From the NCBI RefSeq assembly GCF_037975245.1, contig NC_092577.1:35084898-35148897 (forward strand): a DNA stretch of 64,000 nucleotides. Reading direction: 5' to 3'. Each line of letters opens with the position of its first letter. Position 1 is the stretch's first letter. Source of the stretch: Apostichopus japonicus. Taxonomy: Eukaryota; Echinodermata; Holothuroidea; Aspidochirotida; Stichopodidae. Shown here piece by piece: positions 22,863-63,344 of this stretch. The notes under the pieces are model-generated. The model was given only the letters and a program-made list of their open reading frames with translations. It did no database searches and had not been told where the DNA came from. A program made the translations under genes and the position numbers.

Positions 22863-22989
22863 ACATGGTGTTGAATCAATATCACGAACTTCATTTTCTT
22901 TTGAGATCTCATTCCTGTGCAAAGTCAATGCGTACAGAGAACCTGAAAATATTTCTGTGTGTGTGCGCCGTGGTGCAACGTTGTGATTT

Positions 22990-37800: not shown

Positions 37801-40800
37801 GGTTCCCTCCAACAGAGAGTTATAGAAGGGGGGGGGGGGGTAGTGTTAAAGGTCTTTTATCTGTTAAGGGTATCTATTTCTTTTTGGGGAAGGGGGGTAG
37901 TTCTTTTATAGGTGTAAAGGTTATCTATTTTCTTTGATGGGAGTACTCTATTCGATTAAGCCCAAAAGGGTTTCTTAGTTTACTTCCTTTCACATTTTTT
38001 ACTTATTTGCAGTTATATTGTCTTGTTCACCTTGTTATACTATGTGACAAAAAAAATAATAATAAATAATAATAATTTGTAGAGCACAGGGCTTGGTATT
38101 TTGTTTTCTGTCTGGTACAATGTCATGTACAAGATCTTTCGGCGCCCGTAGCTTTCTAAATGCTGTACCACTTTTATGGAACTCCCTCCCTGTTGAAATT
38201 AGGTCTTTAGATTCTATTATTCAAATCAAGCGCTGTCTTAAAACTTTTCTTTTCTCTCAACTCTATTAGTGTTTTCAGCACCCGTAAAGCCCATTGAACA
38301 ACTTTTGTCGGAGTCTTCGCTATATAAGACTAGTTATTATTATTATTACACACCAGCTATCCCCGCCAACAAAGACTTGTTTGTAGGGAACAAGGCTTGT
38401 AATCCTGAGGTCACTGAACGTTCCAATCCAATTCTAGCCCTAAATTTCTTCCATCCTAATAGATAACCACACCAGAGAGAAGAAGCTCCTCGTAGAAGAA
38501 ATTGTGACCTTGAAGAAACAGAACGACATGATACAGCGAGATATCAACGACAAAGAAGGCCAGATTCTCAGCGCCAAACACGAGCTGGATAAAGGATCCA
38601 CATCTCTCTCGTCCGCTGAACATCAAATTCAAATGCTGCAAGCACAGGTAGAGTTATTAAACATTACTAAAATTATTAAATTAAATAATTGTTACCAACA
38701 GGTTTTAGAAGTGTCCATTCTTGTCTCTTGCACATCCTTCCATGTGAAAGCTAAGGAGTGCCACAATGGCATCGCCCACTGAAAACTTGCAAAATTGCAC
38801 CTGTATGACAATTCGCCCATTTTATATAGCATCTCGTTATGTGATCAGGGATGTGTTCACGCCCATCGGTTGCGCCCGGTAGTTCTGAATGCTGCCCAGC
38901 ACAGACAGTATTTTAAACTTTTCCGCCCGGCACTGTTTTCGATGATTAATTTTACCAAATTTTACCGTTACCAAAATATGAGTGCATACTTGGCCCAGCC
39001 ATTAGCTCCAGAATAGGAAAAAGATTAGCAGACATGTTTTGGGAGAGACCCTCACCCCTTAGACCTCTCCCCTCATGACGTGGATCACACTAATCCGCCC
39101 GGCCCTCAAATATTCCTGAGCTTATCCCTGTGTGTAAGCAGATCATACCGGAAAATAACTTATTCCCCGATTCTTGTTCGTGTTTTTTGTTTTTTTCAGC
39201 TCGACCAGAAGACAGAGCAGTTGAGGAATACTCAGCTGGTTCTTGAGGAGAAGAGAACAGATTTGATCAAGACCCAGTCGGGACTCCAGGAGATGGAAGA
39301 GAAATATTACTCCAGCACTGCATCAATACAAGATGCAGCTGTAGCAGATCTCAGGGTAGGCAGATTGGTCAGAGCAATCAAGGATATTATGCCAAAATTA
39401 CTACTTTTTGGGGAAATATGGAAAAAAAATTGATATTAACGTACTGCACATGATGCTCATGTATCAAAAAATGCTGTTTTAATATTTTTGACTGGGACAA
39501 GACATTGAGATGGGGTTTTCAATCATCGTTTTAAAATCGTCAATATGAAATATTTTTGTTTTTCGAATATAAGTGTCATCTTTTCTGCCACTGGAATATT
39601 CCTTTAATTACTGAAATTGTATAACCATCCAGATGGTGAAGATTAACATTCCATTAATAACCAAATAAGGTATGAATACTTCAGTTGAAGAATACCATAT
39701 CATTAGATTCTTTTTCAGCCAGATCGTGAGATCTAGTTGATAAATTGCAGATATTTAAGAGACACAATTCATGCCTGGGGTTTTACTCAAATATCTTATT
39801 AGTATTCAAATAAGGCTTGAATATTCAAAAGGAAACTAATCCTCTGTGTCATTTGACTCATTTCTCTTCTTTTCTTTGCAGCTGGAAATTCAGAATCTGC
39901 AAAGGAAGCTGAAAGAATCGGAGATGTCTGCAGAACATGACCGATACATGAAGTCCAAGGTAATCCATGATAAGAGAGGTTATATTGCATGATAAATGCA
40001 TGACTTCTGAAATAAATGTCATCAGTAATTCCCAAAAAACTATGCTATGATGTCAGTAATGGTCACTCTTGCTCAAACTTCAGTAGGCATTGTACTGCAA
40101 GCTGCAAAGCATTTTCCTCCAAAACACATTGTGACATTGAAAAATCATTTTTAGAAATCGCTAGCAATTTTTGCCACGCCTAAGTCAGAGACCATGATGA
40201 TGCTTTATAGGTCAATGGTATAGTGCCCAGTTTAGCATGCTAAAAAATGCTATAGTATTTTAACAGTACTTCTGTACAGAATGTGACCCATATATTGTAT
40301 TTAAAATTATTCCTTCGTTTATATTTATATTTTTATATTAATATTTAAGCTGCGTCAATTTTATTTTTCATATTCATATTTTAAGGGTTTTGTCATTTGT
40401 TGTCATTGTAAAGCGCTCTTGAACATGCTTTAGCATGAAAAGAGGGCTATATACATCGGGTAAATAATAACTGTTCTAGCATATTTAGGAGCATTAGGGA
40501 TGTTTAATGAAAGAAAGTTACAATCTTTGGATGTTCAACAGAAACTGTGTTAATCAAAATTAACCAAAAATAAGTTATTAGTGAAAAGACTAATGACTGA
40601 TCCATTTTTTTCTTCCAGATGTCAGATGATGTTAATAATTTGATTAAAGAGAATGCCCTTATCAGCTCCCAGAACCTGGAATTACAGAAACAACTAGAAC
40701 GGGTGAGTTAAGAAGCAATATATATATTATATATTGATATATATTACATATATATAATATATACTATATGTAATATATATATATATAATATATATTATAT

Positions 40801-43585: not shown

Positions 43586-46500
43586 TGCCCACCCCTCACC
43601 CCACCCCTGCCCTCCCTTCCCGTCCCCTATTTGTCAAATTTTTTGTACCTTGTTGTGATGAGTCTACTAGTCACACACTTGTAACTGAGTCACATTTTCT
43701 GCTGACTTGATTTGAATCTGTATCCAAATTTAGTTGACTTGACGAGTCAGCTTCCAACATGCACCGACATTTTTGCATAACTGTTGAGGCTTTGTAGTTG
43801 AATTAAGATGTGTGTGGGGGGCAGGGTGAGGGGGGTATATTCCTTTGCTCTTATCTGATGGACATTAAAAAGGCCACTTGGGGTTTGTCTAATTTTAGCA
43901 GTAAAATATGATATTGTGTTTTCCAATATTCCACACTTTTTTTTTTTTATTCCTTGGAAATTTTTTAAGAAAACTTTTTAGAGACTGTTTAGAGACTGTT
44001 TCAGCTTAACATAGCTTACCCTTTCCCATTTAGTAATATAGTACACTGTTCATTAGCATATCTTGTATTACCCCAAGGTAAGGTGGGGGGGGGGTTGAGG
44101 AAAAGTTAACATTACAGTACCAAGAAGACCCTCCTTAAAGATGTTTATGCTGTCTACAACCTTTGAACTATGATGGTTACTTCTAATGTCTCAATGATGA
44201 CCTGAAAATCCTTGAATTTGTTGAAGTAAGACAAAACGTTTCAAAGCTTTTAATACCTCATCATTTGACTATTTGACAGGCAACTCTTCCTCCCTCCCTC
44301 CTCAAGGAAGTAGAGACCAACAAATGGACATCCTGCTGACTAGACATGAAACAAAAGATACCAAGAAAATATTTCATATATATTTAAAATAATGTATTTC
44401 ACTATCAACATTTCAAGCAAACTTTTATACCATCAAATTTATCACCTTGATATGCAAATTGTATTCATAAATGAGATACATATTTTTCAAGATGTTTTTC
44501 AAGACTATTTTATTTAAGAAATTTTCATTCCTTCCAATAGTTGTTGTGTATATAGAACAACCTTTGTACATTCTCTAACTACTTTACTGCTCATGATCAT
44601 CTTCCATTTACTTTGCAAGCTATATTCATGTAGATGATGGTAAACTTTGTGGTGAAAAGTTTGACAAAGTCCAGCATTCATTAATACGTCAGTCATGGAT
44701 ATCATATTAATGCTTTTAAGACCTAATATGAAACTGTCAAAAATCTTCTTTTTTTCTTTTTTTTTAATTCCTTGAAATGTTTTGGTAAGGTCGTTATTTA
44801 TTGTTTTTTTGACAAGCTGCATAGTTTATATATTGCATTAAATTTTCACAAACTGATTGTGGGACTCCGGTAACAAAACCAAAACATTCATCCATTCTCT
44901 GCTATAACGAGAGAAGAAATATCGATGAACCATCTCGGTATGTTGTTGTAACCGTTTAGGGAGGATGGAGTGGCTGGGACATTTTGCCCATCAGTCCTCT
45001 CACCCTGTCATTACTTATAAGGTCACTGCCTTTATCCACTCTCGACCATAGCATAGTTTAATTACATTGATAACAAATTTGATGTAAAAAATATGAAAAA
45101 TAACAAATAAATTAAGATTAATTTATTTCATTTATATCAGAAGAAAATCATCTCTTTACAAAAGGAAAGGATTTATGGCGATAAAATATTTCTTCCAGTC
45201 GAAATGAAAGAAAAATGGACTCTGAAGGCTTCTGCTGTTTCTCTTTGAGTTTTTACTTTTGTAAGTTTTTTTTTTTTTTTTTTTTTTGGGGGGGGGGGGG
45301 GATATACGTCCTATCGTTATTCCATCCGTGTGTTAATATATGTGTGTGTGTCATAGTGGTACATATTTTTAAATTGGGGGCGACAAACACAGTCAGGAAA
45401 CCTTGTAATTAGGATAACTCCAAAAAGAAAGCTTTGATTATCTTCATATATATATATGATATTTAGGTCCACATTAGCACCAGAACCATGCTGCCAGAAA
45501 TGGTCAAAACTTGAAAATCTTGTGTGTTGTGATATATTAAATGTTCTCGGAGAAACTGGCAGGGAATCACTAGGTCTTAATTCCATATCAAGTTTATAAT
45601 ATCAAAATTTACGTTGTTCATAATGATATAATGATATTTGTGCTTTGCTGTGTGCATTAAACAAGTCAATCCCTCTTACGAGCAAAATAAAATAGTCCGC
45701 TTTTCATATTCTCATTTTCTTTTCTTTTGCATAAATCATGACCTGTGGGCTTCTACCACCAGTGTCTATATTACGTAGGCTGCTGCATTAGTTAGGACGG
45801 GCAAAAAAACCTTTCTATTAATTCTGACATGATTCTGAAATAAATTACGATTTTGTACTCTTGAGATCAATACAATTTGTAACCTAAATACGGAATTTAT
45901 CTTTCTTCCTTCTATTTTCTGTTTTACCTGTTTGTGCTATAGTTACATATTACAGAGATGTCACCTTCATTGTTGCCATCCGTAGAATTACGTCCCCGCG
46001 ATTATCATATCAAAATATGTCACGTATTAAATTGCTACTCAAAATGGTGGCTTGTGGTTCGAACTTCGGCAAACCAGAACAAATATGAACTACAATAAAA
46101 AATTAAAAAGGGATGACAAATATTTAACAAGAAACAATCGATTGTCACAAACTTGTCACAGTGCACGTCCTGCAAATGCTATGTACCTCCTCAGATGCAA
46201 TATCCATCCAAAACAGGGTCAGTTGACCTGGGCGGGCAAGGGGGTAGGGGGTTGGGAACACAGTTTGAATAAAATATTAAGTGCCTCTTTTCATCAATGA
46301 AACAAAAATGTATTTGAAATTCCTTGGAATGTGCTGAGGATTCACTTTGATGGGAAGGTTTGAGGTAAATTTCTGGGTTGCTCCCCCTCCCCCCGGATCA
46401 AAGCCATATGCTTCACTGCCCCTGGAATTTTGTGCCATCACCTGTCAGCCCCCCCCCCCCAACTTCCACAGCTCCTGCAGGATTGCAAATTGAAGAGAAT

Positions 46501-48137: not shown

Positions 48138-48359
48138 ATGGATCAAGAAGAAATGGGGACTGGCAGACCCAATCTGTTACGTTCCCTAACGGGTAATATA
48201 AACCATTTCATAGCATTATGTTACTATGTGTATGTTACACGCTTCAGTATTGGTCACCAATCTTACGTTCTTAGGGAAAATGGATTCGTTCCTCGCGAGC
48301 AAATGGAATTCTTTCCCGGACCTACTTTTCGGATCGCCTATTTAACACATATTTGTGAG
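48138..48359 (+). CDS. AIG1/ADTRP-like candidate first exon 1a (74 codons)
   Basis: Starts at ATG 48,138 (CATAAAATGG) and ends at donor GAG|GTAGGT, phase 0. It has a hydrophilic N-terminus, then a membrane segment (NHFIALCYYVYVTRF), then VPREQMEFFPGPTFRIAYLT and HICE. The Thr five residues before the splice (ACA 48,345-48,347) aligns with the catalytic Thr of AIG1/ADTRP (Thr43 in human AIG1). No exon 2 copy follows before the next first exon, so it must splice to shared exon 2 (61,654) in frame. Closest sibling is exon 1b. Either an alternative first exon with its own promoter, or the relic of a duplicated gene; the intact frame and donor favour the former. Confidence 0.75.
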
Positions 48360-48487
48360 GTAGGTTCCCTTACCGATGTAATCATTCGCTTTCCAATTGG
48401 ACGGGTGTGGGGGAGGATAGAGGGATCGCATGTGACGTAGGACTAAATATGTCTAGTAATGTATTTTAGTATTTGAAGTTATGCTTG

Positions 48488-48575
48488 TTTTTATTATTAT
48501 TATTATTATCATCATCATCATTATTATTATTATTATTATTTTTATTAGTATTATTATTATTATTATTATTGGGGG
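48488..48575. repeat. (TTA)n microsatellite
   Basis: ATT/ATC trinucleotide tract ending in a G-run at 48,571-48,580. Confidence 0.9.
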
Positions 48576-49083
48576 GGGGGCTCTTGGTCTTGGTCTAATC
48601 TCTTTGACTAATTAAGCTTTAATTGATGTATCTATGTTCCATTTGTTTTTAATTGCGGAACAAATAAGATAATTATTTTTCACCAGGATGGACGGAGGAA
48701 AGTTGAAACCTCTCTCAGGCTGAAAAGGAGAGTATAGGAGAGGTGTACTATACAGCGAAATCAGTGTATATGACATGGGTGCAATATGGCCCCCTGGATA
48801 TTCCTTACTGTTTCAAGGCTACATAATATATCTCAATTCATGACGGATAGTTTGTGGCACCGAAGTCGCGGTCGCGAGGATATGAGGCACCGAAAACGCC
48901 GATTCATCACATTCTTTGCAGCGAATAAGATCCTAGTTTCTTCGGTAGAGATCAGTGTGTCGCTTGTCAGTTTCCAAACCCAGTGCCGCCGGTTAAATCA
49001 CTGCACCAGTGGCAGTTTATACGAAGCCCTACTCCTGTCCCAGTAATATCAGGCGCAGAACTAGACTGGGTTGGGGAAGGGGG

Positions 49084-49989
49084 CATGGGCGTCAACAGGT
49101 GGGGGACGGGGGGGACATGTCCCCCCACTTTCAAAAGTGGAGGGGATATCATATCATTTGTCCCACCCACTTTTCAGAGTAGTTATTAAAAAAAATCACA
49201 TGCATATGCGCGATTTTCTATTTAAGGTCAAGAAATCTGGACTCCCTGGGCCCCTGCTATCTATCACTTGCACCGTCATTTATCTCCCATTCTCCCAAAA
49301 TCCTAAATCTGCCCATTTAATTCGTTCGGGGGGGGGGGGGGGAGACCATTCGAAAGTGTATTGAATCTTGCACACATGTTGTTTGTATGGGTTCCAAGGG
49401 ATTAGGTAAGCCATACAGGTAGATGGTGATGAGTTACTATGTTCATATCACTACCTCCAGTCCCTTGGACTGGCCGGACGAATAGGGGTGTAGGGGTTAA
49501 GTAATTAAGGCTACATGTATTCGCCGGATATGGCAGATCTTTCTTGTTGAGTGCCGGCTAGGCGCTACACACGCTCTGCGCGCGGTGCCTTTTTCTGATT
49601 ATTATTATTAAAGTACCTGGGCACATAACAACTGACGTCTCGCACCTACATGCATGTATTATATATACCACTCCACTCATCCCGGAGGTGACGGCGCCAC
49701 TTTTTCAATATTTCGTTTGAGATGGACGCTGTGTAATTCGTCTCCCTTGGTGTCAGAACGGCATCTTTCTACCAGTACTTTCTGTCGGAATTTAGTTTTG
49801 TGAGACAAAATTTCTCCTCACAGATCTGGTTCTGATGTAACTAAAAACGACTCAGGAAGGCCGTCTCCTGCGATCTAGGGGGTCTTATGTACCCAAAATT
49901 TTCTGAAACGCTACGCGCCAACCAATGGTGGCGCTCCGCTTAGATAGTATAGTGTCCCCCTCACTTTCTGAAACCTGCTGACGCCCATG
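49084..49989. mobile_element. non-autonomous hAT-like element, 906 bp, exact 8 bp TSD
   Basis: GAAGGGGG lies directly outside both ends (49,076-49,083; 49,990-49,997). Termini read CATGGGCGTCAACAGG and, from the right, CATGGGCGTCAGCAGG. The right part shares GCGCCAACCAATGGTGGCGC and CTCCGCTTAGATAGT with elements at 17,959 and 19,174. No transposase. It lies between candidate first exons 1a and 1b. Confidence 0.85.
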
Positions 49990-49999
49990 GAAGGGGGAG

Positions 50000-50645
50000 G
50001 AGGTATTCACTCCCTCTTTACCTCATACAAAGATTCAACATTAGTTATTAGCACAACCTTGTGCTTAGATGATAGATCTCCCTCCTTCACCAACCCCAAC
50101 CGCCACCATTCTGCATATGGTATGCAAGTATCCTTGCTTCTTGAAGTCATTGAGATGGTAACGACATATGATTAAACGTAGCATATGTTGGAAAGCATAC
50201 GGAAGTAGGAATTGTGAAATATAGAAACGTGTCAAAAGCTTTCACTTCAGTCAGTCCATTTAGTTAAGAACTTTTCCCCTGACTATGGAAAACTCATGCC
50301 GATTCACACCACTCGCAACAACCATGAACCGCTGCCTAATCGAGGGCGACATTGCAAAACAGTTTGTAAGCTAGTGTCCTTCGGAAAGCACGTTGTAAGT
50401 ATAACGATCATATACATGTATACGGTATCGAACAGCAGCCGTTATATGCATGGTAATACAATAGTACATGTTTGTAATCGAAGTATGTTATCCAGGTAAA
50501 GCTGTTTGACACGCGGATCAATAGTATCTGCAGTTTATACTTCATTGAACACAGAGCTGTACATAAGTTTCATGTAAGCGGAAATTGAATATTACATTGA
50601 CTGGCATCAGCAAATGGTGAACTCAGAAAAGTCACGATCGTAAAA
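50000..50645. other. no accepted gene; upstream of exon 1b
   Basis: Two short open starts (ATG 50,285 with donor TTT|GTAAGC at 50,366; and ATG 50,296 with GTT|GTAAGT near 50,395) lack the membrane segment and the FF..T signature of the neighbours, so I did not call them. Promoter elements not identifiable. Confidence 0.4.
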
Positions 50646-50918
50646 ATGGGGAAAAAAGGCACTAATCCTAAGCAGAGCCGGAGATCGGGCGGCTTGAAGC
50701 GTCAAGTGCAAGATCAAGATCGTGGCTTCGGAAATCCAATGTATTTGGGACGCCGATTGTTGCATTTTGTAATATTCTGTTACTATTTGTTTATAAATAT
50801 CTATGATCTTGGCTACGAAGCCGTACTTTTACGCGACCGTGGTCTGGTTCCGCCCGAACAGGTGAAGTTTTTCCCAGGGATTTTGTTCCGTTCCGCATAC
50901 ATGACACATATTAATCAG
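50646..50918 (+). CDS. AIG1/ADTRP-like candidate first exon 1b (91 codons)
   Basis: ATG 50,646 (TAAAAATGGG); donor CAG|GTAAGT, phase 0. A long basic N-terminus (about 35 residues, KQSRRSGGLKRQVQDQDRG) precedes the membrane segment LLHFVIFCYYLFINIYDLGY, then VPPEQVKFFPGILFRSAYMT and HINQ. The Thr at codon 87 (ACA 50,904-50,906) is again five residues before the splice. It is most like exon 1a (FFPG..FR.AY.THI), which points to tandem duplication of a first exon. It should splice to exon 2 at 61,654. Confidence 0.78.
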
Positions 50919-51614
50919 GTAAGTCGACCCCACGAAGGAAGCACATAATATATATATATATCACACATGTATTCCACAGGCATGATCAACTGGATGGTTT
51001 TGAACTTCTGATATAAAATAGGCTCATCTCACTGTGTCGTTGGTTTCGCATTACTTAATTCTCCCGCCTGAACACTCTCGACCCCTCCCCCCTTTTTTTT
51101 AAATAACAATTAACTATCAAGCACTGTACACTTAAGGCCTACATTCAAGCTTTCAGAAGAATATGTTATCACTAAGTAAAAGTCAGTATAAAGTATCATC
51201 TTATCAAACAGTTTCTATTCAAGTGTGGTTTGAAAGAAAAAAATCGACCAATTTATAGCCGCCCAAGAAAACTACACATAACATATGGTCATTGTTCTGG
51301 TACACTCTGAAGTCTTACCCCTAGTCCCAAGTTACCCTGGGGGAGGGGTGGAGGCTGCAACATCGATCGTGATTATGAGGGTCACGAAGGTCAGTATTAC
51401 GATGCCTTGCATATCACGGATATCGTAAAGTGGCAATTGCAAGTAGCCTACCCGACCAAAGTAGAGCGTGGCCTTGCAAACAAAACAACTTCAATGATCT
51501 ACTCTTCTCCATCCGAGGTGCCTTTTGAGGGTGTGACCTTGCGTTTATCGGTGCTAAAGGTCGAATTAATTAAGTACGGTCATTTAGAAGGGTAGTACTC
51601 GAGCCTACACGGAT
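50919..51614. other. no recognisable gene
   Basis: Sequence after donor 1b; chance frames only. A short AT run at 50,947-50,961. Confidence 0.4.
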
Positions 51615-52020
51615 ATGGCAAGCCATGTGGGACAAACACTGCATAATATATCAGCGTATTAATCGTAATTTATACGCGTATTAATTAATTGGAATATATA
51701 CGCGTATATATTATTAGCCAATCATATGGCCCAAATATATCCGCGTATTAATTCGAATATATACACGTATTAATTCGAATATATACACGTATTAATTCGA
51801 ATATATATACACGTATTAAATAGAATACATATGGGGATTAAATCCAATATATGCACGGATTAATTAGAATATACACGAAAACACATTTCCGCCCTTGCTG
51901 TGTACATATACCAACGATAAATGTTTTGGCGGGCTCGCGAGATCGCTTCATAAAGTGAAACTTTACACATGTATAACACATATATATATATTCGAATTAA
52001 TACGCGTATGTATTCGAGGA
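51615..52020. mobile_element. right-truncated copy of the ATGGCAAGCC element
   Basis: It begins ATGGCAAGCCATGTGGGACA and runs through the same ATTCGAATTAATACGCG arrays and core as 41,325-41,788, in opposite orientation. It stops about 45 bp short of the expected right terminus, near TACGCGTATGTATTCGAGG. It lies between first exons 1b and 1c. Confidence 0.85.
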
Positions 52021-52383
52021 ACGTATATATTATAGGAACTGTTATGCCTAATGTTATCAGTCAAATAACAAGACCGTATAACTCTCTAATATCTCAATGT
52101 AGCCAATGTTCACAGTTATGTAATAGACGCATTTTATATCCGCAGGCTACACAAGCGTTTTGAGTATACATGTGTAGGGTACTTAATCGGGTTAACTAAA
52201 TATGTAGTTTGAACCCTTCGAATTTCCTCGATTCATTTGATTTTAAATTACAGTGAAACCAACACAAAGTACCATATGGGTTCGAATGATCGAGATGATA
52301 ACCTTTTCGAACTTTGCGCAGCACTTCTCCAGAAATAGATTAAAAGGAACAGGTTCGCAAAAATATATCCAACTTTAAAAATA

Positions 52384-52570
52384 AATGATAAATAAATGAA
52401 TGAATGAATGAATGAATGAATGAATGAATGAATGAATGAATGTATGAATGAATGAATGAACGAACGGACGGACGGACGGACGGACGGACGGACGGACGGA
52501 CGGACGGACGGACGGACGGACGGACGGACGGACGGACGGACGGACGGACGGACGGACGGACGGAGGGATA
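52384..52570. repeat. (TGAA)n followed by (GGAC)n microsatellite
   Basis: About 15 GAAT units to 52,460, then about 28 GGAC units. The open frames (His-Ser-Phe-Ile and Val-Arg-Pro-Ser repeats) are artefacts. Confidence 0.95.
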
Positions 52571-52639
52571 GAGGAAGGTACGGACTGACGGGCAGCGGCG
52601 GGCGGGCGTATGGAAAGCCATTCTAACATTTAATCGGGA

Positions 52640-53260
52640 ATAAAAAACTGAAGACACAAACACTCAGACCCGATTACAATGCTTAAAGTGCTTGTCCAAA
52701 GCATTCTTAAACCCATTGACACTATTTGCAAGTACAACTTTCTCAGGCAAACTATTCCACTCATTCACAACCCTATTAGAAAAAAGTTATGCCGAATATT
52801 AATCCTACATTCCTACTATGCGACTTTTGAAGTTTAAGACAATGACCTCTAGTACAACTACTGTTTGCAAACATGAAAAAGTCGGTAAAGGATAAATTGT
52901 CGAAACCATACACAATCTTGAAAACCTGGATCAAGTCCCCACGTAACCTCCTAAGCTCCAGTGTGGTGAGATTCAACAGTTGTAACCGCCTATAATAAGG
53001 AACCCTCTTTAAGGAACTAATCATCCTAGTAGCCCTCCTCTGGACCTTTTCAAGTACTTCTTAATCCTTAGCAAAATAAGGGTTCCAAGCCTGCACAGCA
53101 TATTCCAGATGAGGCCTAACCAACTGCTTATAAAGCCTAACTACGATGTCCTCTTTCAGAAAACTGAAGTTCCTCTTGATCATACCTAAATCCCTATTAC
53201 CTCTTTTAGCAGCTTCAAGACAATGTTTTTGTGATTGAAGCCTGTTTGGTATTAGAAATT
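52640..53260 (-). pseudogene. LINE polyprotein C-terminal fragment, minus strand
   Basis: On the minus strand, from about 53,120 down, it reads RPHLEYAVQAWNPYF, then (after a stop) EKVQRRATRMISSL. It continues YYRRLQLLNLTTLELRRLRG and DLIQVFKIVYGF, then VNEWNSLPEKVVLANSVNGF and KNALDKHF. This is the typical end of CR1/jockey-like LINE ORF2. Stops and a frame change make it dead. The tetranucleotide microsatellites next to it may derive from its tail. Confidence 0.8.
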
Positions 53261-53924
53261 TACTTTATGAAATTTATCATATAATTGACTAACACTTCTA
53301 TCGCTACTGTTTGATTGATCCAGCAACGTCACAATGGAGAACATCCCATAGTGGGTGGGTTTGAAATAGTACTCAAGCCCATGCACGCACAACTGACTCG
53401 GATTCTTTTTCACATTATAATTAATCACGTATAAAATTGAATCTTGAATATTTAAATATGTCTTACATTCACTTGTTGAAAAGAAAGTTGAATAGTCAAG
53501 CTAAATAACTTGACCACGCCATGGGATTTGAACTGAACAAATACGTTGATGTTTGTTTGTTATTCCTATACTGAATAATGGTCACCACTTTAGCATATAC
53601 CACGAACTGCAAGATGTGTCACATTCTGGAGCTTCCTGAGCAAGATCATAATTTACCTTGATTGAGGGCTCTCGACTAGGTATAAATGTTTGGATCAAAC
53701 AGGCTGTGAGAAGGAACCAATTCATGAGTTTTGTTTACAGTTGCATCCAGGCGCGCGGTTAATATGTGTGTATATAGAGCATGCGCAATGGGATGCATTG
53801 TAACGATCTCAGTGATAACTTACCATTGATAAATAAATTGCTATACCCTGTAATTAGGAAAGTAATATACGAAGAGTCAATAATTAATCGTTTATACAAA
53901 TATATGTTGTGTAAAAGTAAGTGG
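53261..53924. other. no recognisable gene
   Basis: AT-rich, no exon or repeat boundary recognised. Confidence 0.45.
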
Positions 53925-53965
53925 GCCTGACGTACGTTTCGATCCTTGCAGGATCATCCTCAAAT
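53925..53965 (-). mobile_element. Penelope-like end with hammerhead-like stem
   Basis: On the minus strand it reads TGAGGATGATCCTGCAAGGA then TCGAAACG. It is the same GATCCT-loop-AGGATC stem and GAAACG box as at 14.5, 15.3 and 19.6/20.1 kb, here with a 4-base duplication (ACGTACG) before TCAGG. Confidence 0.55.
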
Positions 53966-55043
53966 ATATATTGCGATTATATTTTCTGATGTCTTGTCTT
54001 TTCTTTCCTTGGTTTTGTCTTCTCATATCGGGAGTTCCCCTCGATTGGGGTCCCTGCATGGGCCTGTTTATCCATCTAACCTACTCGTAAACCCGGCCCT
54101 ATAGTCAAATTTATATACAAATCTACTCCTGGTCATATCAGAAGAGGATAGGGAATGGTACAGCTTTGACGTGACCCCATTCCTCCTTCCCAACCCTTTC
54201 CCCTTAACCCCCCTCCCCTCCCCCTCCCCTCCCCCTCCCCTTCCACCCTTAGTAACGCCACCGCGATATATGTCAACGATATCTCCTTAACTGTTACTAT
54301 GGAAACGGTCGTGCCGTTATCGTTGAACTATAAGTGGTTAACTTCTCCTACTATTAAAATCTGAATGTGACTTTGCTTATACTATGCGTAAACAAAACCG
54401 AGAACAAATGATGACATTTGACCTCTTGAACAATGTATTCGCAGCGATTAAAATTGACAAGAGCCACTAGTTATATTTACACTAGTTAAACGCCTGTGTT
54501 AACCCATCTGTTAAAGCCTGTATATACATACTGAAGTCGTAATACATGGGAACGCTATGCAGCTACGTATTTGTATCTGTTGTATGACGTTTTCAGGTTG
54601 TTCTCGTAGAAACAGCCAGAAACATCGATGCCACGTTGTGTTGTGAGCTGCAAGTCATCCGTTTTGCCTTGTAGGATATTTGGTACCGTACTGTTGTCGA
54701 AGATTGCGCAATCGGGGTCATAGTTCAACACATGCAACTCGGACCTTTTTGACCTTCGTTTTCATCTTAAAGTAATGTATTAATGTGTTACTCGGCGTAG
54801 GTTTACATTTACCTGCTTACATATAAATCCCTTTGGAGTTATTTTTGGGATTTTTGTCGACGCCTATTTGACACACTCCAATGGACTGAGAGAAGTTCAC
54901 CTCTCCACTTGATTTGTGAGTGACTTCGCAGCCATAAATATTGAAGTCTTCACAATATCTTGCAACCTATTCAGCAAGTAACCATTTTTCCAGGTACTGT
55001 GTTTTCTTTTAAATCCGGGAACTTTTTGTCAAAAATCAAAACC
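53966..55043. other. no gene; C-rich tract and exon 1c upstream region
   Basis: 54,208-54,246 is a CCCCTCCCCT repeat whose complement is a strong G-quadruplex candidate. A pyrimidine-AG at 54,980-54,993 (TTTTTCCAG) could end a 5' UTR intron ahead of exon 1c. Confidence 0.4.
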
Positions 55044-55355
55044 ATGCAAAGACGAGAAGAAGCGGTAACTATCGACTTGGATGAATCCATACCGTCCAAG
55101 GCCGGTACCGCCGATATCAATGGCCATATACCGCGGTCTGGCAATCACAGATTAACAGCATGGAAAGTACTGCTGGGGTTAACACGGTTCGTGTTTCACA
55201 TCGCGGCTTTCAGTTTCTATTTAAGAGCGATATGGGTGGACTGGACACATTACTCACCGGTATTAATCGATTACGAACTCGTCAACGAGCAGATCCTCGT
55301 CTTTTTTCAAGGATCGATATTTTACAAAGTCTGTTATATTTCAAATATCTGTGAG
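55044..55355 (+). CDS. AIG1/ADTRP-like candidate first exon 1c (104 codons, Ser variant)
   Basis: I chose ATG 55,044 (AAAACCATGC, good context); the frame is open further upstream but without another ATG. Donor GAG|GTAAGT, phase 0. The N-terminus is a ~45-residue hydrophilic extension with an acidic patch (VTIDLDESIPSK), then a membrane segment (LTRFVFHIAAFSFYLRAIWV), then NEQILVFFQGSIFYKVCYIS and NICE. The position five residues before the splice is Ser (TCA 55,341-55,343), unlike the Thr in all other first exons. Ends ICE like exon 1a. It should join exon 2 at 61,654. Confidence 0.75.
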
Positions 55356-57377
55356 GTAAGTATATAGATCGTCACTGCATGAATCTATGTTAAGTAATAA
55401 CATTTACAAGGGAAATTCCCAAATCTAGACATCCCATGTAAACAAAGTTTCGTTGTCACGTGGTCCATGTGCATACTTTGTGTTTTGTCGATGGTGCATA
55501 CGTATCTGCTCTATTGCAGTTTTATGGTTTGATGTGATCAAATTAAGGTCCTTATCTACCCTCACCTGCCCCCCCCCCCCATCCCACCCACACACGCACA
55601 ACCCCTCACCCTCCTGATATCGATGTGGTTATGAAGAATGCCCCAAAGTCTATATAGAATGCAATTCATTATTGTAATTAGTTTGTTGTTATTCATACAT
55701 CTTCTTTCAACCATATGCTGAAAAATGTTATCTCTGCTTTCTTAAATTATAGTCTACTGTCACCCACGTATACACCACACACAACACCTGAGCCTCCTTT
55801 ACCTCTTTGATGCAGATACCTATACTAGGTCCACGTCAGTGGTGTCGCCAGACATTTTAACCTGGGAGGGGGCACAGCCCGCACAGGGAGGGCTCATCAA
55901 TAAATTAGGGCGGCATAATGTTTATTTGTGAATGCCGTCCTGGGGGAGTGGTCTAATGGGAGGGTGCTTCCCCCTCCCCTTTGAGAAAGGTTGATGAATC
56001 AAGGGTATTAAGGGTCCTTAGATGCAATCTGGTGCTATATTTTGCAACTTTAATTAACTTTAATTAAGTTCAAGAATATTAGTCTGTCCGATATTTATGT
56101 TTTTAATTGAGGCGGATAAAAAAGTTATACAAAATATTGAAATTAACCCTATTGCTGATAATATTTTTTAAATAAGAGTGTTGAAAATTGTAATTGAAAT
56201 TCATGCACGGTAGTAGTGAAGTTTAAGTACTAGCGATTCACGCCGGGGCCTCTATAGGGAGAAAACAACTGGTTATTGTGACGGTCGGTGGAAAGAAGTT
56301 TTACTGAGGAACATAAAACGTTTCGCTCTTTGTAAACAAGTTTTTGTTTGAGTATTTTTTTAACACTACAAATCGCATCTGTGGCACCTGGGGGGGGGGC
56401 ACGATTTTTGTTTGGGAGGGCACGTGGCCACTCCTCTTTGAGAAATGTTGGTAGAATCATAAAATGGAGGTTGCTTGGATACAAAATGGTGCTATTTTTT
56501 TGGGCAACTTTTGAAACAATTTTCTACTTCTAAAGTTGTACCGCACATAATATGGTTTTTACACTAGACATATTTTATTGTAATGTTCTGTCTGCCAATG
56601 GGGAGGGTAGCCCACTGAGGGAGGGGACGGGTTAAAACCCCCCCAAAAGTATACGTTGGAAGTTGCGCCCGTGGTATAGCCTCTTCCTCACATGACGAGG
56701 GATTGTGTTGTAGTGTGCATATGTACATATGATTTCATTCACGTCAAGTTAACAGTTTGTATGTTTTTTAATATATCTTGCTACGAAATGTCAAGTTTAA
56801 TATATGACGGTGACGAAGAGGTTGTTGCTGTTGTTATATGATGTTGTTGGTTCGCTTATAATGCATGTATATAACACCAGACTAGGAATGGACTACAAGC
56901 GAATTGAAACTGGTTTATTTCAGTCATGTTTGCTATCATATGAGTTTCTCTGGATATCGGAGAGATTCGATGGTTTTTTAAGATAAAATCTTTGGTTTGA
57001 CTTGTATCGCCACACACTTATGATACCAGAGTTCCAAAGGCCAAGGGTACCGCCTGCACGCTCCCTGTAACAAGACAATCGAAAACCCAAGAATTTTTAA
57101 CCCGAATAGACTGGTCTTTGGTCCTTTCATGAAGTCAATCATTCGTCGAAGATAATTCCACACCGCGGCATTTGTAAATCCAGTTATGTCTGTATCGTCA
57201 CGTCCTAATGAATAACTATGTAGAGTTTTATGTAGGCCTATGTTGCACATATTACTTCGGTCCAGTAAGCCTACAGGGGGCCTAAGCTATATTCGCTAAA
57301 TTTACTGAAGTTTTCAACTTCTCATGTGCATGAGTGAACAAACTTAAACTCTTCTATACCTGTTTACATTGTCCATA
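55356..57377. mobile_element. intergenic, with a probable degraded hAT-like element at ~55,845-56,690
   Basis: It contains CAGTGGTGTCGCCAG at about 55,846 and CAACTTCC-type/CGCCCGTG ends at about 56,690. The interior words ATGCAATCTGGTGCTATATT and CAACTTTTGAAAC also occur, in reverse, inside the 505 bp element at 19,566. No matching target duplication was found, so the limits are uncertain. The rest shows nothing recognisable. Confidence 0.4.
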
Positions 57378-57587
57378 ATGAAAAACAGCCGCGGAAAGGA
57401 AAAAGTGAACACCGGTTTACACCGTCACGGACATATCGCGATATTCATTTGGTATGTGTTCGTAATTACTATCGATTGGATATACTTTACACCGCGATTA
57501 ATGTTATTTTCTGACGAAAGAAAACACTTTTTGGAGTTCTTCCACTTTTACCTTTGTAATTTGGCGTTTTTAACCAGCATAAATACG
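57378..57587 (+). CDS. AIG1/ADTRP-like candidate first exon 1d (70 codons)
   Basis: ATG 57,378; donor ACG|GTAAGA, phase 0. It has a basic N-terminus (KNSRGKEKVNTGLHRHG), a membrane segment (IAIFIWYVFVITIDWIYF), then LMLFSDERKHFLEFFHFYLC and NLAFLTSINT. The Thr at codon 66 (ACC 57,573-57,575) is five residues before the splice. It is the most diverged member (EFF retained, no PG). It should join exon 2 at 61,654. Confidence 0.72.
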
Positions 57588-58143
57588 GTAAGAAAGAGAC
57601 TGTTCTTAACATCGTTAAATTTTGTGTATTGGTCGCATGCTTTTGCACACGTGCGTACGTAAGGAGGGAGAGGGGGGTTAGAGGGGTGACATAACACAAA
57701 GTGGGGGAATCTTGGGGATACTTTTGGCACTCAGTCGGTGGAACCTAAGGACCACTCTTCCATTATCTCGTCAAAACGTCAATTTTTTGAGGTTTGTCAC
57801 GTTACCATCTCGTCAACTCGTCAATTTGCAGATAATTGTCGTTTTGTCAAGTTGGTAACTCGTCAATGCAATGTCCTTTCTACGCTTCCGTACCATACTG
57901 TTAGATCAGGGACTAGTGATTCGGCTTTGATCGCTGAAACAGTACGTTGTCTGCAGTCTGCATTCTAAAAGTTATCCTAATCCTACCGTATTGTCAGTTA
58001 TATTCAGAGTGTGAATCTTCATATTATTAATGTTGATTTCTGAAGAAAAAAAGACATAAAATACAATTGGTTGAACGTAGTTTGAAATTCTCGGCGTATG
58101 TACAACTACTTTTTTCACTAACGTTAGAATCCTCCCAGACACA
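57588..58143. other. no gene; short fragment of the satellite-flank repeat
   Basis: 57,862-57,893 (GTCAATGCAATGTCCTTTCT, then ACGCTTCCGTAC) matches both inverted arms at ~14,087-14,118 and ~20,807-20,838. Otherwise nothing recognised. Confidence 0.6.
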
Positions 58144-58305
58144 ATGGCAGCTACCTCTGTCACTGCTACCATCTTTCATTTTGGACTTGTCTGGTATTAT
58201 TTTTACACATATTACCATTATACCATTACTTTTGAACCATCTCTTCGACAATTTCGTCCAGATACATATGGTGGTTTGTGGAAGTTCCTAACCTTCTGGG
58301 GATTG
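58144..58305 (+). CDS. AIG1/ADTRP-like candidate first exon 1e (54 codons, canonical type)
   Basis: ATG 58,144 (CACAATGGC); donor TTG|GTAAGA, phase 0. It has a short N-terminus, a membrane segment (TIFHFGLVWYYFYTYYHYTI), then RPDTYGGLWKFLTFWGL. The YGG.WKF.TF signature is the canonical AIG1 N-terminal motif; Thr50 (ACC 58,291-58,293) corresponds to catalytic Thr43 of human AIG1. Nearest sibling is exon 1f. It should join exon 2 at 61,654. Confidence 0.85.
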
Positions 58306-58849
58306 GTAAGACATCCTTCATGTAGTAATTGTTAAGAAGCATGTTGTAGATCGTATCACAAGCGCATGCTACACTCGTTACTTCGTTAACGTGCGTTGCT
58401 CAGTATACAGCATACGGAAGTGTTCTTCGATGATCTGGGAATGCCGTTGTTTCTTGCTTTGCTTGTTACTTCGTTATCGATATTTTTTGACACCTGGTTG
58501 TTATAGGAACTTCATTGTATCTTCATATTAATTTAAAAAAAAAACTATTGGCAAATTGTTGAGGTCTATTTTGTCCTGTGCGAGTCGAGTCGAGACGAGT
58601 CGAGGTGGCTTGTTAGCCTTGTATTGTAGCCTAACGGTATTTTAATCTGCCCAGGCCTAGACTAGAACTAAAAGTTAGGCCCAAGTAAGATAACTTAGCA
58701 CTGCCAATGTTAGCAATTTAAGTCTGTAAAGACGTTACAAACGTGTTATGGATAACGTGATCACGAACGTAACGCAAAGATTGGACTAGGCTAAGCCTAG
58801 CAAGAACTCAGATTTTGTTTATATATTTGTATATCCTAGGCTTAGTATT
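58306..58849. other. no recognisable gene
   Basis: Short words GAGTCGAGTCGAGACGAGTC near 58,583 are a small degenerate repeat; nothing else seen. Confidence 0.45.
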
Positions 58850-58857
58850 ATTACAAT

Positions 58858-59480
58858 GCTTACCAGTCAAAACGTCCCTTTACCAAGACGTCCCTGTACC
58901 AAAACGTCCCCGCTTTTGGTCAAATCGTCCCCGTTGGTCAAAACGTCCCGTAAGTCAAAGCGTCCCCATCTAAGACATTCATTCACAGTTGTTAATATAT
59001 ATTAATTTTAAGTTATTATTTGGCTATGTTATCGGCATGCAAGTTGGATTACAGGCCCAAAATAAATCATGAAGGACTATATATCATTTAGGGCAGGGAC
59101 AGGAAAGGGGGCTGGGGCTTTAGCCGTAGTCCCCCTTCTAGACCATCAAAAAATACCAACTCGTGTTTAGAAAAAATCCTTTTACCCTACAGCCCTCTTG
59201 CATTCCCTTTTCTTGTATCTTACTGTACCTCAGAAAATTATACTCAAAAATGTTTCCGCCCTCATACCCAGCACTTCCCACTCCTAAAAACTGTGTTTTC
59301 AACCTAAACTATACTTATCCTTACTCTTTGATTTGAACTAAAAACATCCACACTTGCATTCCAACTGATTATAAAAGCGGGGACGTTTTGACTGCGGAGA
59401 CGTTTTGGTAAAAAGCGGGGACGTTTTTGGTCTTAAAAAAGCGTGAACGTTTTGGTAAAGGGACGTTTTGACTGGATACC
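58858..59480. mobile_element. 623 bp element with AAAACGTCCC-repeat TIRs, exact 8 bp TSD
   Basis: ATTACAAT lies directly outside both ends (58,850-58,857; 59,481-59,488). The left end begins GCTTACCAGTCAAAACGTCC; the right end read in reverse is GGTATCCAGTCAAAACGTCC. Each TIR carries several AAAACGTCCCCGC units. It is the complete relative of the copy at 31,556. Non-coding. It lies between first exons 1e and 1f. Confidence 0.9.
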
Positions 59481-59559
59481 ATTACAATACTAGTTGTTAT
59501 GTCGTGAGTCTGTCGTGTATATAATATGGGCTACAGTACATTAAACTAGGCTAGGCCTG

Positions 59560-59612
59560 GTAACTCTCGGATTAACACTCGGATTAACACTCAGATTAAC
59601 ACTCGGATTACT
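59560..59612. repeat. 12 bp tandem repeat
   Basis: CGGATTAACACT repeated about four times. Confidence 0.85.
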
Positions 59613-60741
59613 TGTACTTACTAAGTATGGATGCACTAGTTTATTTGTAATGTCTGGTAGCATGATGGTGTGTATATAAGCTACGATTTTCAAAAAAATC
59701 AATTTCACCAAAAATTTGTAGTTAATAGTGACCAACGTGTCGAGACAATGAATAAAACCTACTATATTATTTCTAAAATAAGCATTCAGTATCATGCAGG
59801 ACAGTGAGCAACAAGTTATCTTGAATACTTAACAGTAAAAATGTTGCAGAATGGAACTAATGCATAGTGGTACACATGTACATCAGTGTTTGACACAATC
59901 CCTCACTGGCTTGTGGACACCTCCCCAAACATGCTGAGTCATCGGTGCATAGTACCGCTTACAGTTATATTATATAAAAGACATGACCAGTTAATTTCTC
60001 AAAAGATCTCAAATTGAGAACATAATTGATTTGTACCCTGTTCAAGTCAAAATCATTAATTATAAGCACTTGGATTGGCTCAAATGAGACCATCATTTGC
60101 TACGCTTAGTACATGATTTATTCTACCTTTGATTCCTGCATCTATAGATCTGTTACGGTTGCATGACCTACCAACAAATCATTGCTACCATTGCAACAAT
60201 TCCTGCCTGGTTTTCGTCCTGTGTGTTTGCTCTTTTGCTGATAAAGTTGAGATTATTTGTAAACCTTGATATGTACTTTATCTTGAGTTGTTTACTTTGT
60301 ATTCACATGGAGAGAGGTGTATGTCTGTTTTTAAGATATATGCCATTGCTGTGTATACGATGGCAGCCATTTTATCTTCAATATTAAACTTAGCCACTCA
60401 GTACAGTATCCTAGCTATAGCTACAGTACATGTACATTTTGTGTAGAGTATATGACCCTGTTAAACATACATGTACAGTTTATCTGTTTTTACATTAAAC
60501 TGACTTCACAAATCCACTACCATCTTTGCTTTCTGGAGATAAAGAGGTTTAATTCTGTTTTTCCTGTGGTCGTGGTGTGAGATTTTTGAATGGTAAATTT
60601 CTGATTTAATACAGTACTTCAGTTGCTTTGTATCCTGATTTGATCTGTGGCTTGGATCTCGTCTGGTGATTCTGGTCTGGTCTGGTTAACCTCTTCGTCA
60701 GTCATTTTGGATAAAAAAACAGTTCAACAAGACATTTCAAT
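59613..60741. other. no recognisable gene; upstream of exon 1f
   Basis: A 74-codon frame at 60,163-60,387 is hydrophobic but has no AIG1 signature and no phase-0 donor at the expected place; it is not called. Confidence 0.4.
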
Positions 60742-60906
60742 ATGGCTTCTGCCTCGTCTTTTATATTAACTTTGTTACATTTGGCGATATCGTACCATTA
60801 TACCATGACCTACTGGATATACATAACGGATACGAAACAGCGATTGCTCGCCGTGCGACCGTATACCTACGGCGGGGAATACAAATTTTTCACAATATGG
60901 TGTCTG
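60742..60906 (+). CDS. AIG1/ADTRP-like first exon 1f (55 codons, canonical type)
   Basis: ATG 60,742 (TTCAATATGGC); donor CTG|GTAAGA, phase 0. Membrane segment ILTLLHLAISYHYTMTYWIY, then RPYTYGGEYKFFTIWCL. Thr51 (ACA 60,892-60,894) aligns with catalytic Thr43 of human AIG1. It is the first exon nearest to the shared body, 747 bp before exon 2, and with exons 2-4 gives 173 residues of a typical ~240-residue AIG1-like protein. AIG1 and ADTRP are multi-pass membrane threonine hydrolases that cleave fatty acid esters of hydroxy fatty acids (FAHFAs). Confidence 0.9.
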
Positions 60907-61653
60907 GTAAGAATCAGAGAAAACAAACAGCTACTGTTTAAGCTGACTTAAGTGATAAGTCAGAATTTTGGTATTAAAGAGTAACCATCTCCTATTCAAT
61001 TTGGTCAGTTAATATTTAAAGATATGTTGTTTATAAATATTTTTGATATTCCTGAAACTAACAGTAGTAATTTTGTTCACAGAACATATCACCCCAGTGG
61101 TTAAATTTGATATATGTTTGATCGGATTGTTTTAAATATCAAATGTATATGAAAATTTGCCAAATTTACAATCTAAAACTACAGTACATTCTCTGCTGTA
61201 TAAACTTGCAGTTTAACTTACTGGTTACAGTGTGTTTTCCTCAGCCTGAAAATATCAAAATACAAGTGATAAGAAAGTTAAATGATAAGTGAAAAGTAAT
61301 TATTTCTTTAATTTATGAAGAGTAAGATTACCTTTAGATGCAGGGGGGCTTTTTTGAACATATTTCTGAGCTTATTTTTCATCGGCTTACGACACAGGTT
61401 TTGTAACTGTAAAAAAAGACAGAAAAGTAATCAATGTTTGAGGTATGGCACAGAAAAGGCACAAAAGGCATCAGTGAATCAGAAACAGGTCGACTGTTAG
61501 GTACCACAATTGCTAACCAGAAATCCATGATTGTAGTACAACAGGTCAGACAGACCTTCTCTGCATTTCCCAAAGGAAGTATCACGTTTGTGATATGAGA
61601 AAAATAAGTTCATTCTTACTTCTTTTTCCATTTTGTTATTTTTATTTCTCCAG

Positions 61654-61791
61654 ATTTTGCAGTTAGTATATTTCTTCTGGTCTTGCATAACTGACATGGT
61701 ATCGGCGTCTGCACCACATAGCTCAGCAGGAAGGGCAACTGTAGCTTTCAGAGATTGGTTCCTGGCCGCAATAGTCTTCCCCATTGGTTCT
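61654..61791 (+). CDS. AIG1/ADTRP-like shared exon 2 (46 codons)
   Basis: Acceptor TTTCTCCAG|ATT at 61,652-61,653, donor TCT|GTAAGT, phase 0 at both ends, so it can receive any of the six first exons. It encodes the second membrane segment ILQLVYFFWSCITDMV, a short polar loop, RDWFLAAIVFPIG (the conserved RDW...FP element) and the start of the third membrane segment. Only one copy of this exon exists in the window. Confidence 0.92.
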
Positions 61792-61859
61792 GTAAGTCTT
61801 TAACTATTTGTATTTCTCTGGTAGACTTTAAGGCTGGACTTAGAAAATGGAAGTGGGGA

Positions 61860-62339
61860 GGCTTGGAGGAGGTGGGGGTGGGGGGGGAGAGGAATGTGGG
61901 ATGGCAGGTATGAAAGAGAATAAAAGGGTGAGAATAACAAAAAGGGTAAAACATATATCAGAAAGATTACTTGCCTTGAGAAGCAAACTATGCAGTATAG
62001 TGTATACAGGAATCCTTATGTAGTAGGACTGGACGTTGTACGTACAAATGTTGTTCTCACAAAAATTGCGCAAGTTCCGGGCAGTTCTGTTTAAATGGCT
62101 TGGAGGGGATGGGGTGGGGGGGAGAGGGGTGTGGGATGGAAGAAGGAGGGTAAGAAAGAGAATAAGAGGGTGAGAATAACAAAAAGGGTAAAACATCTAT
62201 CAGAAAGATTACTTGCCTTGTCGAGAAACAAAATATACAGTATGGTGTATACAGGAATCCTCATGTAGTAGGACTGGACGTTGTACGTACAAATGTTGTT
62301 CTCACAAAAATTGTGCAAGTTCTGGGCATTTCTGTTTTA
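61860..62339. repeat. 238 bp direct duplication in the intron after exon 2
   Basis: 61,860-62,097 and 62,098-62,339 are near-identical in order. Both start GGCTTGGAGG with a G-rich stretch and both contain GAGAATAACAAAAAGGGTAA and GGACTGGACGTTGTACGTAC. Non-coding. Confidence 0.92.
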
Positions 62340-62386
62340 CATATTAATCCATTCATTGTTTCTCTGTGTTTTTCCTTTCTCAACAG

Positions 62387-62488
62387 TTGGTCGTTATAAC
62401 CTTTTGGGCGATTTATGGTATGAACAGGGAGCTCATCTTTCCGGCGGCACTTGACGAATTCTTTCCAGCCTGGTTAAATCATGCTTTG
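62387..62488 (+). CDS. AIG1/ADTRP-like shared exon 3 (34 codons)
   Basis: Acceptor TCAACAG|TTG, donor TTG|GTAAGT, phase 0 both ends. It encodes the end of a membrane segment (LVVITFWAIYGMNREL), IFPAALDEFFPAWLNHAL. The NRELIFP and P.WLNH motifs are hallmarks of the AIG1/ADTRP family and lie just before the catalytic His. Confidence 0.94.
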
Positions 62489-63228
62489 GTAAGTCATGCA
62501 GTATTTCTATGAGGGAATCTAAAGGCACCAGTTCAAGAAATGTCTAATGTTTAGATCATGTAACTTCAAGAATCTTGTTGATGCTATCGACCAGCCTCTC
62601 ACCCGATTCTATCAAGATATGAAATTATTGACATTTTGTGAATTTTATCGGGGAACGTACAAAGCCCAACTATTGATATCAGTGAAGAACAAGACTTCAA
62701 AAATGCTTTTGTAATTCTTTGGGCACTTTGCCGTATGCAGGCTTGCTAAGAATCTTATCAGGGTTAATTTTGAACTGTACCAGACAAAGAGACAATTGAC
62801 AGCCAGTTGAGTTCCTTTTTGGTGGATCTTTTTCCACCTTAGCCTTAGGGAAGTACCGCCTTGCTTCACTCCATACCCTGTATCTTCCTTAACCTGGGCT
62901 GCACTCACCCCCTGAGGGTGCAAGGCAGGGCTCCATGGGTGCAGATTTATAGACATAAACAACAAATTTATGCACAAAACAATAATAGACAGCAGGTGAA
63001 GTTTTTGCAAAATTATGTTTCCATCGGTTAGGGATGTGCAAGTAGTAGAAAAGATAAAAAAAATCCTGCCCTACAAACACCCAGGGCAAGAGCTTTCAAT
63101 ATTTGTCAATGTTTTTGCTATTTGGACAATCTCAGAATATCCTTCATAATTTTCTAAAATAGATAAACAATGTCTCTTTGTTGTTCCTTAAGTGATTGTT
63201 CCCTTATGTTTTCTCTTTCATTTCACAG

Positions 63229-63344
63229 CATACCTTTGTTCTCCCGTTGCTTCTTATCGATATGTTGCTGGTGAAACATAAATATCCTTCTCGGATAAGT
63301 GGAATCCTCGGTGCTGTAGGCTTTGCTCTTTGTTATCTAGTATG
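63229..63344 (+). CDS. AIG1/ADTRP-like shared exon 4 (38 codons + 2 nt), gene continues
   Basis: Acceptor TTTCACAG|CAT; donor TG|GTAAGT, leaving in phase 2 (TG|G, Trp). The first codon, CAT at 63,229-63,231, is the His that corresponds to catalytic His134 of human AIG1 (HT..LP). The rest encodes HTFVLPLLLIDMLLVKHKYP, SRISGILGAVGFALCYLVW, i.e. a membrane helix, the KYPSR.SG loop and the next helix. About 65 residues of a normal C-terminus must lie in exons beyond the window. Confidence 0.94.

Follow-up and report, generated by a model that had tools for sequence, protein, structure and literature searches.

Can a single gene furnish several versions of one enzyme by exchanging its first coding exon? 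The question is raised by a 64,000-nucleotide stretch of the genome of the sea cucumber Apostichopus japonicus (contig NC_092577.1, positions 35,084,898 to 35,148,897 of the forward strand; hereafter the window), where an earlier note made from the letters alone had described six candidate first exons ahead of one set of downstream exons. We find an AIG1-type locus with a variable-first-exon, constant-body anatomy, which is well supported because the exons are intact and phase-matched, no intervening or other body was detected, the first exons show constraint at the protein level, and each carries a serine or threonine (S/T) at the catalytic position. In our judgement the locus is likely to be a single gene for an integral-membrane hydrolase of the AIG1 family (FAR-17a/AIG1, PF04750), in which the first coding exons 1a-1f are alternatives to one another and exons 2-5 form one constant set.

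Six first exons and a single constant body

The exons of the gene are as follows.

48,138-48,359, plus strand: first coding exon 1a, 74 amino acids; Thr codon 48345-48347; donor GTAGGT
50,646-50,918, plus strand: first coding exon 1b, 91 amino acids; Thr codon 50904-50906; donor GTAAGT
55,044-55,355, plus strand: first coding exon 1c, 104 amino acids; Ser replaces Thr, codon 55341-55343; donor GTAAGT
57,378-57,587, plus strand: first coding exon 1d, 70 amino acids; Thr codon 57573-57575; donor GTAAGA
58,144-58,305, plus strand: first coding exon 1e, 54 amino acids, canonical AIG1 type; Thr codon 58291-58293; donor GTAAGA
60,742-60,906, plus strand: first coding exon 1f, 55 amino acids, canonical AIG1 type; Thr codon 60892-60894; donor GTAAGA
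61,654-61,791, plus strand: constant exon 2, 46 codons; pyrimidine-rich acceptor upstream
62,387-62,488, plus strand: constant exon 3, 34 codons
63,229-63,344, plus strand: constant exon 4; first codon 63229-63231 is the catalytic His; end falls within a Trp codon
64,333-64,498 in coordinates extended beyond the window (C17:35149230-35149395), plus strand: constant exon 5; stop at 64,496-64,498

The first exons begin where the earlier note had placed them and run from ATG to a phase-0 GT donor, with coordinates, frames and donors all in agreement. All six are open over a whole number of codons, and the ATG of each is the first in-frame ATG downstream of an in-frame stop 30-102 bases before it. 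Together they span 12.8 kilobases (kb), with gaps of 0.6-4.1 kb. Exons 2, 3 and 4 have AG acceptors and GT donors, and the claim that a single phase-0 exon 2 at 61,654 can be reached in frame from all six donors holds, since phases and splice sites agree. With exon 5 added, each of the six joined proteins is complete at 227-277 amino acids; directly ahead of the exon 5 stop stands a donor-like GTAAGC, so that a further exon is possible.

The absence of any exon 2, 3 or 4 copy between the first exons, also part of the original description, was borne out by tblastn with exons 2-4 and with exons 2-5, the latter over 114 kb, which found none; the best off-target match for exons 2-5 (expect value, E, 0.057) lay on the opposite strand and outside the array. 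A separate exon 2-4 set was also looked for in the whole assembly (671,581,487 bases in 35 contigs), where the body matched clearly at this gene only. A PF04750 search of the assembly, in which 12 candidates were scored, gave three matches, all to exons of this gene (3, 4 and 5). With the protein of exons 1f and 2-4 as query, the assembly returned 14 matches: this gene accounted for five (E up to 0.0024), and the other nine, at E 0.026-3.0, lay elsewhere. Each of these nine contains stops, which alone cannot exclude an exon, because three of the five true matches likewise extend into introns that carry stops. C6:2976463 and C2:884810, the best two of the nine off-gene matches, were inspected in three frames, and neither contained an exon resembling those of this gene.

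The first exons were searched against the assembly with 1b, 1c and 1d, and with 1f as part of its protein (1a and 1e were left out). Besides itself, each of 1b, 1c and 1d recovered no more than one further exon of the array and, elsewhere, weak matches (E at least 0.045), the best of which, C6:13551272 with query 1d, contains three stops. Query 1b failed to report 1c or 1d, so off-locus copies below about 35% identity could be missed.

A DNA self-comparison of the window's final 21 kb revealed no duplicated coding unit. The self-similar stretches within the gene (51,645-51,876; 55,957-56,511; 58,846-59,492; 61,860-62,337) all lie outside exons. They include a direct duplication in the intron after exon 2 (61860-62092 and 62097-62337, 88% identical over 243 aligned bases) and, between 1e and 1f, an inverted repeat pair (58846-58967 and 59379-59492, about 75%) that is perhaps a small mobile element. 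A long run of tandem 4-base units, GAAT and then GGAC, occupies 52380-52570 between 1b and 1c.

Candidate catalytic residues, family membership and age of the first exons

Hydrolysis is reported to require T43 and H134 in AIG1, and T47 and H131 in ADTRP (PMC8123165). Published AIG1 mutagenesis primers (PMC11139994), which we translated, place T43 within KFL-T-FID and H134 within HGM-H-TTV; the second catalytic residue is numbered His181 and His149 in PMC8394805, presumably a numbering on other isoforms. The corresponding residues are readily located here: exon 1e contains KFLT and exon 1f KFFT, with the threonine five residues ahead of the junction, and constant exon 4 opens with HT, its histidine being the counterpart of AIG1 H134 and ADTRP H131. 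Counted back from the exon end, position -5 reads TTSTTT over 1a-1f and is the sole offset of 53 with S/T in all six; similar residues also fill the adjacent columns (-6, LMILLF; -7, YYYFFF), and the S/T stands 85 residues from the exon 4 histidine in every isoform. Drawing one residue at random from each exon gave six S/T in 0 of 20,000 draws, and counting the exons as three lineages with an S+T fraction of 0.121 gave 0.0018, in both cases for a position that was decided after inspection. We counted from the exon end because MAFFT alignments of the full set put the ends of 1e and 1f in the wrong place. The S/T at -5 in all six exons and the histidine at the start of exon 4 suggest that the variable exon contributes the candidate nucleophile and the constant body the partner histidine, an addition to the earlier note, which lacked it.

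On the plus strand of the window, 11 combinations of start and donor leave 50 or more amino acids open between an ATG and a phase-0 GT[AG][AG]G donor, and exons 1a-1f make up six of these; the minus strand has five. The other five plus-strand combinations comprise two in a long terminal repeat (LTR) retroelement, two (one start with two donors) in the region of an upstream coiled-coil gene, and one at 46,085. All six first exons also contain H-x6-Y. A pattern uniting this motif with S/T at -5 and a phase-0 donor, picked after the six exons had been inspected, matched six times on the plus strand of 114 kb, at precisely these exons, never on the minus strand, and never in 30 second-order Markov sequences. 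Scanning open stretches of at least 38 amino acids with some hydrophobicity over 43.6-61.7 kb, the 20 kb before the window and the region after 64.5 kb, we found no first exon besides the six with both H-x6-Y and S/T at -5; positions 1-43,600 of the window were covered by the stricter pattern scan only.

As for the neighbours named above, the retroelement is of Ty3/gypsy type (22947-27021, plus strand), with matches to reverse transcriptase, RNase H and integrase zinc-binding domains and, under cut-off, a gag zinc finger, spread over several overlapping frames. The exon-like frames of the coiled-coil protein gene (about 36300-43600, plus strand) end ahead of the array; one of four pieces scanned gave Pfam matches, both under cut-off (HAUS-augmin3 and Fez1).

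The six joined proteins all match PF04750 (E 3e-42 to 2e-33; 116-145 bits, cut-off 24.5), and most of the score comes from the body that they share. We gauged the contribution of each first exon by adding it to the body, which with exon 5 scores 160.6 bits alone. The score rose to 190.3 with 1e and 186.1 with 1f, and to 169.5, 168.5, 162.5 and 168.3 with 1a, 1b, 1c and 1d, respectively; three unrelated stretches from the window, added as controls, gave 159.9, 161.0 and 161.7 (-0.7 to +1.1). The gain of 7.7-8.9 bits seen with 1a, 1b and 1d comes from the ends of these exons, which align to the AIG1 model in register with exon 2. Taken alone, 1e (E 0.00077, 19.4 bits) and 1f (E 0.01, 15.7 bits) resemble the model below its 24.5-bit cut-off. 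The 1d isoform has an additional weak match to Pho86 (E 0.28), and PDB sequences held no solved structure for the 1f isoform at E up to 1.

Pairwise comparison within the groups gave z-scores of 30 for 1a-1b, 12 for 1a-1c, 8 for 1b-1c, 5 for 1b-1d, 9 for 1c-1d and 13.5 for 1e-1f. On these alignments homology is clear within 1a-1d, taken as a chain, and within 1e-1f. The homology of 1a-1d to ordinary AIG1 first exons has moderate support. Of the UGT1A- or protocadherin-type architecture that had been proposed, the tandem same-phase first exons and the single constant set stand, and the homology between 1a-1d and 1e-1f is the part held with moderate support.

The five related pairs measured are 30-41% identical. 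By codon position they share 17-38% of third, 55-71% of second and 44-60% of first positions, a contrast whose size is approximate because aligning at the protein level biases the comparison towards positions 1 and 2; synonymous divergence (dS) ranges from 1.5 to saturated, and nonsynonymous divergence (dN) from 0.60 to 0.87. We also simulated the decay of 1a-1d in the absence of selection, with 1,000 runs per setting. All four remained intact with a probability of 0.032 at 5% divergence under substitutions alone, and of 0.009 at 3% divergence when indels were added at 0.1 times the substitution rate; unselected copies would probably not all stay open past a few percent divergence. Near-random third positions beside conserved first and second positions, together with this simulation, indicate that the first-exon copies are old and have been retained by selection as protein-coding, which does not imply present-day use.

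These results bear on whether 1a-1d are relics, either of tandem gene copies whose bodies were deleted or of unused exon duplicates, with 1e, 1f or both the only exons in use. Such an origin would fit the distant relationship of 1a-1d to 1e and 1f. The decay simulation speaks against it, as does the preservation of 1,017 coding bases across the four exons, each with its ATG, its donor and the S/T at -5 in place although third positions are near random, and the array holds no detected traces of exons 2-5. We regard this explanation as quite improbable.

Evidence against the proposed six-way locus and how it might be switched

Several observations weigh against reading all six exons as alternative beginnings of one AIG1 enzyme, and most concern the relationship of 1a-1d to the family. 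None of these four matches PF04750 when taken alone, and 1c contributes just 1.9 bits to the score of the body. Exon 1d alone has a COX1 match, under cut-off (E 0.0044, 16.4 bits against 34.8). A profile comparison of 1a-1d with 1e-1f reached E 0.0076 and a probability of 5%; only two of the eight cross-group pairs are at all notable, 1a-1e (z 3.7; 3 of 500 shuffles) and 1a-1f (14 of 500 shuffles), and in the larger group a direct comparison of 1a with 1d falls short of significance (z 1.1; 74 of 500 shuffles). The one membrane segment per first exon that had been described is clear in 1c and 1d and just mildly hydrophobic in the other four: the best 19-residue Kyte-Doolittle means are 0.98 for 1a, 1.54 for 1b, 1.68 for 1c, 1.91 for 1d, 1.08 for 1e and 1.19 for 1f, so that only 1c and 1d exceed the customary threshold of 1.6. 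Upstream of the exons, no word of 7-10 bases was common to enough of the six 400-base regions at the thresholds used, and TATA-like boxes occur within 300 bases of 1a and 1c only.

The assembly has a mitochondrial contig of 16,099 bases that reads cox1-nad4L-cox2-atp6-cox3-nad3-nad4-nad5-(nad6, opposite strand)-cytb...nad1-nad2, with long frames open under the echinoderm code and gene names, COX1 excepted, assigned by eye; this order fits sea urchins and sea cucumbers. On a second contig, pieces of COX1 lie out of order at C29:14745-31219, so that C29 seems to contain mitochondrion-derived sequence.

That 1a-1d form one group apart from 1e and 1f, without a match to the AIG1 model of their own, is what would be expected if they belonged to another gene whose body lies elsewhere and is joined by trans-splicing, or has diverged past recognition. 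We consider this highly improbable, given that the assembly yielded no clear score for a second AIG1 body, that the ends of 1a, 1b and 1d improve the AIG1 score in register with exon 2, and that 1a-1d share strand, phase and an S/T at the catalytic position.

In the mechanism that we favour, one first exon at a time would be spliced in frame to exon 2, each possibly from a promoter of its own. The chosen exon would supply the first membrane segment, the N-terminus and a loop that differs in length and sequence from exon to exon, as well as the candidate catalytic threonine (serine in 1c), and the constant body would supply the catalytic histidine and the remaining membrane segments. Because the nucleophile and loop would lie on the variable exon and the histidine on the shared body, the locus would make up to six isoenzymes, which might be expressed differently and accept different lipid esters, following a logic like that of UGT1A.

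The same proteins could be reached through another switch, in which the six are mutually exclusive coding exons that share a single promoter and an untranslated 5' exon from which they are spliced. Several of them have acceptor-like AGs in the 150 bases ahead of the ATG, which makes such a 5' exon possible: the best have 11 pyrimidines of 15 for 1c (at -123) and 1e (-16) and 10 for 1d (-112) and 1f (-40), and the lack of a common promoter word points the same way. Ahead of 1a and 1b the best candidates reach 8 of 15 and are weak, and the spread of 12.8 kb with gaps of 0.6-4.1 kb would fit separate upstream control regions. We think a shared 5' exon unlikely, though less so than either of the preceding alternatives; it overlaps with the favoured explanation, and the likelihoods of the two are not exclusive.

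More broadly, we regard it as an even call whether a single invertebrate lipid-hydrolase gene became a six-way locus, in which the exchanged exon bears the nucleophile along with the N-terminal segment that faces the substrate and the body bears the histidine, and whose six isoenzymes, differing in substrate range, stand in place of the separate vertebrate genes AIG1, ADTRP and AIG-L.

Comparison with known variable-first-exon systems

Vertebrates are described as having three gene groups in this family, AIG1, ADTRP and AIG-L (PMC8394805), which are atypical threonine hydrolases of fatty acid esters of hydroxy fatty acids (PF04750). The sea cucumber locus is like them in that its joined proteins match the family model, 1e and 1f resemble the first part of that model, the histidine of the catalytic pair is present, as is the threonine in five of six first exons; it is unlike them in having one body with six candidate first exons and in one substitution of serine for threonine. 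Among the matches listed from open-licence PMC papers, we found no description of a variable-first-exon cluster in the AIG1 family, and the terms 'androgen', 'AIG1' and 'FAR-17a' have zero occurrences in a Holothuria genome preprint. A Holothuria scabra contig is reported to match the sea urchin record 'Androgen-induced gene 1 protein isoform X1', with the first exon unspecified (PMC7838161).

The closest parallel is UGT1, where tandem variable first exons encode the N-terminal acceptor-recognition part with a proposed catalytic histidine and are followed by shared constant exons (PMC1885805), and where a promoter of its own lies ahead of each first exon (PMC3325998). Both loci have tandem first exons of the same phase and strand and one downstream constant set, but the protein families are presumably unrelated, and the UGT constant exons encode the UDP-glucuronate site whereas those described here bear the catalytic histidine. 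GCNT2 and UGT2A likewise have a few variable first exons, followed by two and five constant exons, respectively (PMC1885805); here, in contrast, the five related pairs are 30-41% identical and the two groups barely align. Clustered protocadherins and chelicerate Dscam, with its tandem 5' cassettes, share the plan of tandem 5' exons and shared 3' exons, but these are cell-adhesion molecules and not enzymes.

Variable-first-exon clusters are thus already known from UGT1, GCNT2, UGT2A, protocadherins and chelicerate Dscam, and this locus would extend the plan to a lipid-hydrolase family. The enzyme clusters described in PMC1885805 are the vertebrate UGT and GCNT2 loci, and the Ugt1, Gcnt2 and Ugt2a organisations are termed vertebrate-specific there. 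If our interpretation is correct, the locus would offer a natural set of six for studying the role of the AIG1 N-terminal segment in substrate choice, including a natural change of threonine to serine, and an echinoderm lipid hydrolase with an active-site residue on its variable exon would mean that this way of diversifying enzymes evolved independently here.

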